Program-made: the position numbers and the translations under genes
Notes under the pieces: model-generated
What the model was told of the DNA's origin: nothing
The model's input: only the letters and a program-made list of their open reading frames with translations
Database searches by the model: none
Part shown: positions 130-1,929 of the stretch, one piece after another
How positions within the stretch are numbered: the stretch's first letter is position 1
Layout of the letters: each line of letters begins with the position of its first letter
Assembly: GCA_021772565.1 (NCBI GenBank)
Contig: JAJFLR010000060.1
Span: 1-49,351, forward strand
From: Opitutales bacterium
Lineage (GTDB): Bacteria > Verrucomicrobiota > Verrucomicrobiia > Opitutales > JAJFLR01
Reading direction: 5' to 3'
DNA: 49,351 nucleotides

Positions 130-211
130 CGCACACAAGGCAAATGCACTCGGACTACAAAAAGCGCCGCTGCGCTCTGCTTTTTGTCGCCGGTGATTTG
201 CAGCGTTAGCT
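130..211 (+). other. integron attC recombination site (first)
   Basis: Folded imperfect palindrome of about 82 bases. The right end is a core-like GTTAGCT at 205-211 (consensus GTTRRRY, one mismatch). The left end reads CGCACAC followed by AAGGC, as in many attC R'' boxes. The inner stem ACAAAAAGC (157-165) pairs perfectly with GCTTTTTGT (179-187) around a GC-rich terminal loop. Outer bases 140-156 pair with 188-200 with the extrahelical bases typical of attC. It would be the attC of a cassette whose gene lies left of the window. In the first 129 bases I see only frames that stop quickly. Confidence 0.72.
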
Positions 212-236
212 ATGGCATAAAGGAAATAATGAACGT

Positions 237-614
237 ATGAGCAAAGATATCATTTTTTCAAAACAAGAAGACTATTTGCTTGCGAGTATCTCTGATGTCC
301 TCATTACGCCTGATCGGGCTCAAGAAATATTAACTCTAATTGGTAAAGAGTGCTCTAATAATAATTTTAATAAAGTTATTTTGGATGAGCGAACTGTTGA
401 GAAGCGAGAGGTTCCACCACACGAAATTATGAATTTAAAGGATTTAATAAAAAAAGAAGGCCTTGAAACAATTCATATGGCGTTTTGGTGTCAACCACAT
501 CTAATTAATGATGATTCAAAAAAACTAAGTATTTACACGTTTTTAAAAGAACACATCATTAAACATTTTGCCGAAAGGGATAAGGCCGTAGCATGGCTAA
601 AAACAAAACAATAG
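237..614 (+). CDS. STAS/SpoIIAA-like small protein in an integron cassette
   Basis: A 125-residue soluble protein. The N-terminal strand, the ILDERTVEKREVPP segment and the amphipathic C-terminal helix ending DKAVAWLKTKQ match the layout of STAS/SpoIIAA-like single-domain proteins. These are usually protein-interaction or anti-anti-sigma-like modules. The assignment rests on fold-level pattern only. The gene begins 25 bases after the first attC, and its TAG stop overlaps the left end of the second attC, the classical arrangement of an integron gene cassette. A Shine-Dalgarno-like AAGGAA lies upstream, unlike the core genes of this window, which suggests a foreign origin. No partner kinase or sigma factor is nearby, so its cellular role cannot be stated. 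Confidence 0.75.
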   Translation: MSKDIIFSKQEDYLLASISDVLITPDRAQEILTLIGKECSNNNFNKVILDERTVEKREVPPHEIMNLKDLIKKEGLETIHMAFWCQPHLINDDSKKLSIYTFLKEHIIKHFAERDKAVAWLKTKQ

Positions 615-672
615 CGAACGCTTCAATCAAACCGACGCCTAAAAGCGGCGCGGTTTAATTGAAGCGTTAGGT
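613..672 (+). other. integron attC recombination site (second, 60 bp)
   Basis: A 60-base attC of the short class. The right core is GTTAGGT (666-672), a perfect GTTRRRY. The right arm reads GGTTTAATTGAAGCGTTAGG. The left arm, AGCGAACGCTTCAATCAAACC with mismatches, is its near-complement. The centre is a CGACGCC / GGCGCG hairpin. Length, core boxes and stem layout resemble the aadA-type attC sites of mobile integrons. The stop codon of the preceding gene overlaps the left core. This is the strongest evidence that the left end of the window is a cassette array. Confidence 0.9.
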
Positions 673-693: not shown

Positions 694-1929
694 ATGAAAA
701 CAATTGTATTCGCAGTAGCTGGGTATAATCTTGCTGAAACAGGTAGACATATTGAAATTGCAAGAATATGTAAGGAGCATTTTAATGTCATTTTCATTAG
801 CTATGGTGGAAAATTTGAAAGATTAATTGAAGAGGAAGGCTTCACACTAAAAAAGATGGAGCCACGGTTGACTGAAAAGCAACTGCATCATGTGAGAAAA
901 GCGCTCAGCGGAGAAACATTAAATACAGTAGGCTATTTTACAGCCGAAGAAATGCAGCCCAAGATTGAAAATGAAATAAATTATTTTAAGGAGATAAAAC
1001 CTGCCTGTGTCCTTACCGGATGGTGTCAGAGCGTTATGATTTCAACAAGAGCTGCAGGGATACCTTTCGTTAATGTTCTTCACTCCACAAGTATAACGGA
1101 ATACTACAAAGCAGGGCTTCAAACCTAGCCAGACCGGTCTAATTTCTTCTTTCTTAGATTGCTTTTTTCAGAAGAAAAACTCAATAAAAAGGTGAGTAAT
1201 CTTGTCCTTAAACTGAAATTGCCTGCAAAACCATTCAATATATTAGCCAAAAAATACGGTTTAAAAGAATTTAGTAATTTCATAGAAGTCTTAGAGGGAG
1301 ATTATACGCTTTTAGCAGACATTCCTGAATGGGTAGGATTTCCTGAGATTCGCCCGAATCTTCATTATATTGGACCTTTACCTTTCAGGTTAAATGCGAA
1401 GATTCCCAGAAAAATAACTGAAATACCAAAAGACAAGCCTATTGTTTATTTTGCCATGGGAAGTTCCGGTAAACCAAGACTTATTGCTGATATCATAGAA
1501 GGATTTCGAGGAAAATCCTACCATGTTATTGCTCCAGTTGAATCTCATATAAAAGATATGAACTTAGAAATACCTTCTAATGTAATAGTTACAGGCTTTT
1601 TGCCTGCACATAAGGTTAATCCCATGGCAGACATATCTGTCATTCACGGAGGCCAAAATACTGTCATGAATGCCTGTCTATCGGGGACACCCATCGTTGG
1701 GATCGGAATGCACCCGGAACAGCAAGCGAATCTTGACGCCTGCGTTCGGAAAGGGTTCGCTATTCGTCTGAACAAGAAACGGGCAACGGCATCTGATGTG
1801 CTGGCCGCTATCGACAGATTACTCCATGACGAAACGGCAAAGACAGCAGTGAAAGAATTTCAGAAACAACTCGAAGAATGGGATGGTCCAAAGAATGCCT
1901 CCCGATTCCTGAAGGAGCATTACGGATAG
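694..1929 (+). pseudogene. UGT/MGT-type glycosyltransferase (GT1 family) interrupted by an in-frame TAG
   Basis: Two open segments in the same frame (694-1128 and 1159-1929) read as one 412-codon glycosyltransferase with a single TAG at 1126-1128. The N-terminal half has the acceptor-domain start (KTIVFAVAGYNLAETGRHIE). The C-terminal half has a nucleotide-sugar binding signature IHGGQNTVMNACLSGTPIVG followed by HPEQQANLD, as in UDP-glycosyltransferases and macrolide glycosyltransferases. Codons after the TAG (PDRSNFFFLRLLFSEEK) continue naturally, so a TGG or CAG to TAG change is the simplest explanation. A clear Shine-Dalgarno (AGAGGG) precedes the ATG. The gene follows directly after an attC but has no recognisable attC downstream. 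GC rises sharply in the last 250 bases (20/60 at 1201-1260, 36/60 at 1681-1740), hinting at a mosaic origin. A sequencing error at the TAG is possible. Confidence 0.8.

Follow-up and report, generated by a model that had tools for sequence, protein, structure and literature searches.

An integron cassette array at a contig edge of an Opitutales draft genome, with one attC site very probably invaded by a group IIC-attC intron

Group IIC-attC introns insert at TTGT/T in the R'' box of the attC bottom strand, in the orientation opposite to that of the cassettes, and have also been described from clusters of attC sites without a linked integrase (CALINs) (PMC7923331). Insertion at TTGT/T in the bottom-strand R'' is likewise documented in PMC4424553 and PMC9229058. 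Integrons are known from Verrucomicrobiota (PMC8618304). Here, we analyzed a stretch of 49,351 nucleotides (hereafter the window) that constitutes an entire contig (C80) of an Opitutales draft genome (124 contigs, 3.57 Mb). Base 1 is the contig end and falls within a multi-copy group II intron, and the feature under study spans bases 130–672. The left end of C80 is very probably an integron cassette array, one attC site of which has been invaded by a group IIC-attC intron. This reading draws on attC hairpins, an intron 5′ end with an exact junction, related introns at attC-type hairpins in other genomes and an intact IntI gene in the same genome, with the intron itself identified by homology.

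The intron-invaded array is a new case of a known kind, namely, an integron array invaded by IIC-attC introns. Like the introns of the S.ma.I2 type, including those in the aadA1 and fosE attC sites of NZ_MF564291, the intron is inserted at TTGT on the R'' side of the attC bottom strand, runs opposite to the cassettes, and carries the conserved 5′ end (..GCATG..ATGAGGTnnAAGTCCTCTGTA). Unlike the introns of NZ_MF564291, it starts with GTGCGCC instead of GTACGCC, and only its first 134 bases were assembled. The intron-encoded reverse transcriptase (IEP) of its relatives (locus L056) is only ~46% identical to those of resistance-plasmid IIC-attC introns, and, unlike in known IIC-attC cases, the closest relatives found for the host IntI were Pontiella sulfatireligans (67%) and Kiritimatiellales genomes. 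The locus resembles chromosomal integrons in its intact IntI above the family cut-off, in its attC sites of the 60-base and a longer class, and in a toxin-antitoxin cassette beside a second site on contig C51; it differs from them in that the array is split over contigs, several truncated intI starts exist, and no complete attI-array is found in one piece. Taken alone, C80 has attC sites without intI, as a CALIN does; unlike a CALIN, it ends within the array, so that the absence of intI may be only apparent. The coordinates of the features are listed in Table 1, where the cassette is delimited by the attC crossover point in R' (G|TT).

Table 1. Features at the left end of the window
Feature	Position	Strand	Basis or remark
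Group IIC-attC intron 5′ end, cut by the contig end; starts with GTGCGCCTGGCATG at 134 and runs leftwards	1–134	−	Identity to C51; homologous introns
attC site 1, lacking the outer portion of its R'' box (intron split at 134/135)	135–211	+	R' = GTTAGCT at 205–211
One complete gene cassette	206–666	+	From the R' crossover (G|TT) of site 1 to that of site 2
Cassette gene, 125 aa, no recognised family	237–614	+	Stop codon (612–614) overlaps site 2 by two bases
attC site 2, intact, 60-base class	613–672	+	R' = GTTAGGT at 666–672
Glycosyltransferase gene (UDPGT/MGT-like), one in-frame TAG at 1126–1128	694–1929	+	Begins 22 bases past site 2

Candidate attC sites were scored with a covariance model of eight short attC-type sites, all from outside the host genome and drawn from loci encoding IntI relatives and from a class 1 integron. 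A first alignment (A1), which had misaligned arms and a variable loop length, was dropped, and the short set (A3) was used instead. The base pairs of the model showed covariation above that of shuffled or slid versions, with eight sequences only. Among the positive controls, two aadA1/fosE sites, both in the training set, scored 51.0 and 42.8 bits, and a class 1 integron site outside the training set (L106:6632–6703), located directly upstream of blaVIM-2 on the cassette strand, scored 23.6 bits. In the window, the model matched exactly the span of site 2 (40.8 bits, E = 1.2e-7), with the next best match at E = 0.93, and in the whole 3.57 Mb genome this was the sole match at E ≤ 10.

Other properties of site 2 agreed with this result. 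It comprises an 18-nt inverted repeat (complementarity, 94%) in the short-attC layout, with AAC opposite the R' box and a near-complete stem, and its bottom strand folds as DNA at −23.3 kcal/mol (z = −7.9). Among all GTTRRNY positions in the window, 193 over both strands, its stem energy ranked second, and its local alignment with the aadA1 attC scored 54, where the best of 2000 shuffles reached 33. An earlier note, made from the sequence, had taken this stretch for a true attC from its 60-base length, GTTAGGT core and complementary arms, and this is borne out. The same note had held that hairpins recurring widely beside unrelated genes would speak against an attC; the hairpin of site 2 occurs once in the genome.

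Both attC sites are confirmed as real, with R'' and R' boxes and a folded bottom strand, site 2 by the model and site 1 by homology and its top-ranked hairpin, not by the model. The inner stem of site 1 is a perfect 9 bp (ACAAAAAGC/GCTTTTTGT), and its stem energy was the best of the 193 GTTRRNY positions (−20.0 vs a mean of −7.6, sd 2.1). A strict GTTRRRY stem scan missed the site because GTTAGCT does not fit that pattern; the repeat with GTTRRNY found it. The short-attC model did not accept it (9.1 bits, E = 8) because it is longer, its R'' is broken, and its R' is one base off GTTRRRY; thus, the covariance-model check proposed earlier, run here with our own model, came out in favor of site 2 and not of site 1. 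It is homology that points to site 1 as an attC. The site is 81% identical to an intergenic site on a Desulfosarcina plasmid and 72% identical to the site that follows the ere cassette and precedes the DinB cassette in a Providencia mobile integron, in which an integrase is present, and its alignment with a site from a Desulfuromonadales contig that also carries an intI-like gene reached a local score of 71 (shuffle maximum, 31). In the uninterrupted homologues on the Desulfosarcina and Providencia plasmids, the stem is preceded on its 5′ side by ATAACAA; the window has GGCGCAC|ACAA at this place. Of the site proposed earlier at 130–211, the hairpin, the GTTAGCT core and the 9-bp stem therefore stand, but the attC part now begins at 135, because bases 130–134 belong to the inserted intron. 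Separately, a pattern scan of viral contigs for sites like site 1 gave three matches, which resemble coding sequence and were discarded.

The array has one gene per site, in the same orientation and with its stop close to the attC, and the position given for it earlier, between the two sites with its stop overlapping the second, is correct. The earlier label of STAS-like protein found no support: the 125-aa protein had no Pfam or NCBIfam match, and its single-sequence structure model was of low confidence (pLDDT, 54.7) and gave no fold match at E ≤ 0.001. No relatives were found in 272 other genomes of the order, plasmids or viral contigs, as expected for a captured gene. Homologues of the glycosyltransferase that follows were only 28% identical within the order and occurred in 2 of 176 other genomes; its gene may close the array as a final cassette with no recognisable attC, or mark the chromosomal edge. 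Farther to the right, a short and apparently truncated piece of a SAM-dependent methyltransferase gene lies at 2666–2953.

On the other side of site 1, the intron splits the R'' box at 134/135 (bottom strand, TTGT|GTGCG), and the bottom-strand junction continues as TTGT|GTGCGCCTGGCATGTGTATGAG..., a group II intron start. The insertion at TTGT|T in the bottom-strand R'' is where an intron of this type would be expected, and uninterrupted homologues of the site show the empty target. Bases 1–134 of the window are 100% identical to C51:4–137 in the same genome; both sequences continue with ACAA and then diverge completely into different hairpins. The earlier note had read this end as a piece of an integron and had missed the intron that interrupts site 1.

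The identity of the intron follows from its relatives. An intron in a genome of the same order (G010) is 81% identical over 138 nt and has an RF02001 match (117 bits) and an IEP downstream. Homologous stretches in the order (L053–L056) are followed by RF02001 domains at 82–125 bits, and, on contigs that extend far enough, also by a reverse transcriptase (IEP) with RVT_1 and GIIM domains. In L053, L056 and L057, the intron likewise stands after a hairpin at TTGT, and in the latter two the junction is the same as in the window (TTGT|GTGYGCC). The class 1 integron of NZ_MF564291 carries two introns, in its aadA1 and fosE attC sites, with the junction TTGT|GTACGCC. Their 5′ ends, as well as those of the relatives, align with the 5′ end and domain I sequence of the window intron (alignment A2). 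The RF02001 match in the window itself was weak and below threshold (16 bits, E = 0.86), as expected because it covers only 28 positions at the contig edge. Domain V and a class C IEP are present in the relatives L056 and L054; for the window intron, these parts would lie beyond the end of C80.

One intact IntI gene was found in the host genome (C86:46–1044, 332 aa), scoring 418 bits against a cut-off of 265 for TIGR02249, the integron integrase family with the IntI-specific insert. It lies on a different contig from the array, and the window holds no intI, as had been stated earlier. The attI side of this gene is missing because the gene starts 45 bases from the contig end, and C86 and C80 both stop short of the attI-array junction. 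Truncated copies of the initial 200 bases of C86, covering the start of intI and its upstream region, were found on C24, C94 and C50, and C106 has the upstream 53 bases only (C24:1–182, C94:20564–20717, C50:1883–2035 and C106:48864–48916; L108–L111). Since truncated intI starts occur on several contigs, the genome had several integron heads. After the upstream motif AAGTAGCG, C94 has TTAGAGT where ATGGCAT stands in C50 and C106. The boundary on C94, AAGTAGCG|TTAGAGT, is probably an attI-cassette junction. A link between the intI of C86 and the array of C80 is plausible.

These observations are consistent with the following course of events. A preceding cassette would have ended in site 1, and a group IIC-attC intron would have entered its bottom strand by retrotransposition, in the R'' box at TTGT|T. 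Its RNA–protein particle presumably recognised TTGT along with the folded attC bottom strand and inserted the intron there by reverse splicing. The split in R'' would weaken or block IntI recombination at site 1, and site 2 would stay usable. The presence of the intron in several copies is the probable reason why C80 ends where it does, and the integrase of C86, or another integron head, may serve the array across the gap. The lack of an integrase is plausibly an assembly effect, because the window, a whole contig, starts inside this multi-copy intron. Counting against this explanation are the missing contig between the array and any integrase, the sub-threshold Rfam match in the window, the rejection of site 1 by the attC model, and the fact that no complete intron copy or matching IEP was found in the host assembly.

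That the sites form a true CALIN, an attC cluster without a linked integrase and with the integrase elsewhere in the genome, is possible though doubtful. The window without intI and the IntI gene on another contig fit such a cluster, as do the several broken intI starts, which suggest scattered integron pieces, and IIC-attC introns are known in CALINs too (PMC7923331). However, with C80 breaking off within a multi-copy intron and the IntI contig cut on its attI side, the assembly cannot show a separation, and the orientations of cassette and integrase fit one integron. The earlier proposal of an orphan attC cluster is unsupported for the same reason: the end of C80 within the intron suffices for the apparent absence of intI, 'nothing to the left' being a limit of the assembly, and no such claim can be drawn from the window. 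A related reading is unlikely, namely, that introns of the same lineage in separate attC-like hairpins (C80, C51 and perhaps C113), together with the truncated attI-intI starts, scatter integron pieces via repeat recombination and yield new cassettes and satellite attC sites. If true, it would illustrate in nature the part that IIC-attC introns have been proposed to play in forming cassettes.

It is very improbable that the hairpins represent palindromic repeats or terminators of transcription instead of attC sites, with an intron inserted after a terminator as in other class C introns. Class C introns do often insert after terminators (PMC4424553), and site 1 alone fails the short-attC model; however, site 2 alone in the genome gave a model match, site 1 has homologues lying between the cassettes of the Providencia mobile integron with its integrase, and both sites have an R' box and the gene-between-sites layout. 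We give almost no credence to the left 134 bases being the end of an attC-targeting insertion sequence, e.g., of the IS1111 family. Invasion of attC sites by IS1111 elements has been reported (PMC9229058), and a multi-copy sequence at a contig end would suit one, but bases 134–1 align with group II intron 5′ ends located beside IEPs and RF02001, including those of class 1 integron introns.

With the array read as invaded by an intron, what looked like an orphan attC cluster is probably an effect of assembly. Where IIC-attC introns occur in multiple copies, contigs break exactly at attC sites, and the automatic annotation of draft genomes will therefore be prone to false CALINs and missed introns. 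The locus is also a further case of IIC-attC introns and of a multi-headed integron, from a lineage that does not belong to the well-studied Proteobacteria, with empty and filled target sites both visible.

Several further sequences related to introns were noted. An exact-pattern search for the intron start in the genome contigs (genome_contigs) gave no match. The second intron copy, on C51, precedes a region (C51:138–795, L035) with an attC-like hairpin (R' GTTCGAT) that the attC model did not accept, followed by a RelB/DinJ-YafQ toxin-antitoxin pair and then by an ORF resembling elongation factor P. A stretch of 35 bases on C113 (140–174, L022) is 97% identical to the intron start and continues into unrelated sequence; it is probably either a remnant or another intron that shares this 5′ end. 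Group II intron domains of other lineages were detected by Rfam on C86 (11607–11946), C107 (22909–22997) and C119 (2037–2111) without an adjoining complete reverse transcriptase; the domain V matches on C107 and C119 were not linked to the window intron, and neither was the group II intron with which C86 ends on the right. Group II reverse transcriptase genes at C96:7528–8550 and C98:41208–41858 are 96% alike and have the same end sequence at the contig end, which makes another multi-copy intron likely; as the IEP of the window intron they were rejected (~36% identity to the IEP of its relatives). In the same-order genome G350, a whole contig (C67, L056) has its first base within an IIC-attC-type intron that includes the IEP; a second copy, preceded by a hairpin, is cut by the other contig end, and two cassette-like genes lie on the opposite strand between both intron copies.
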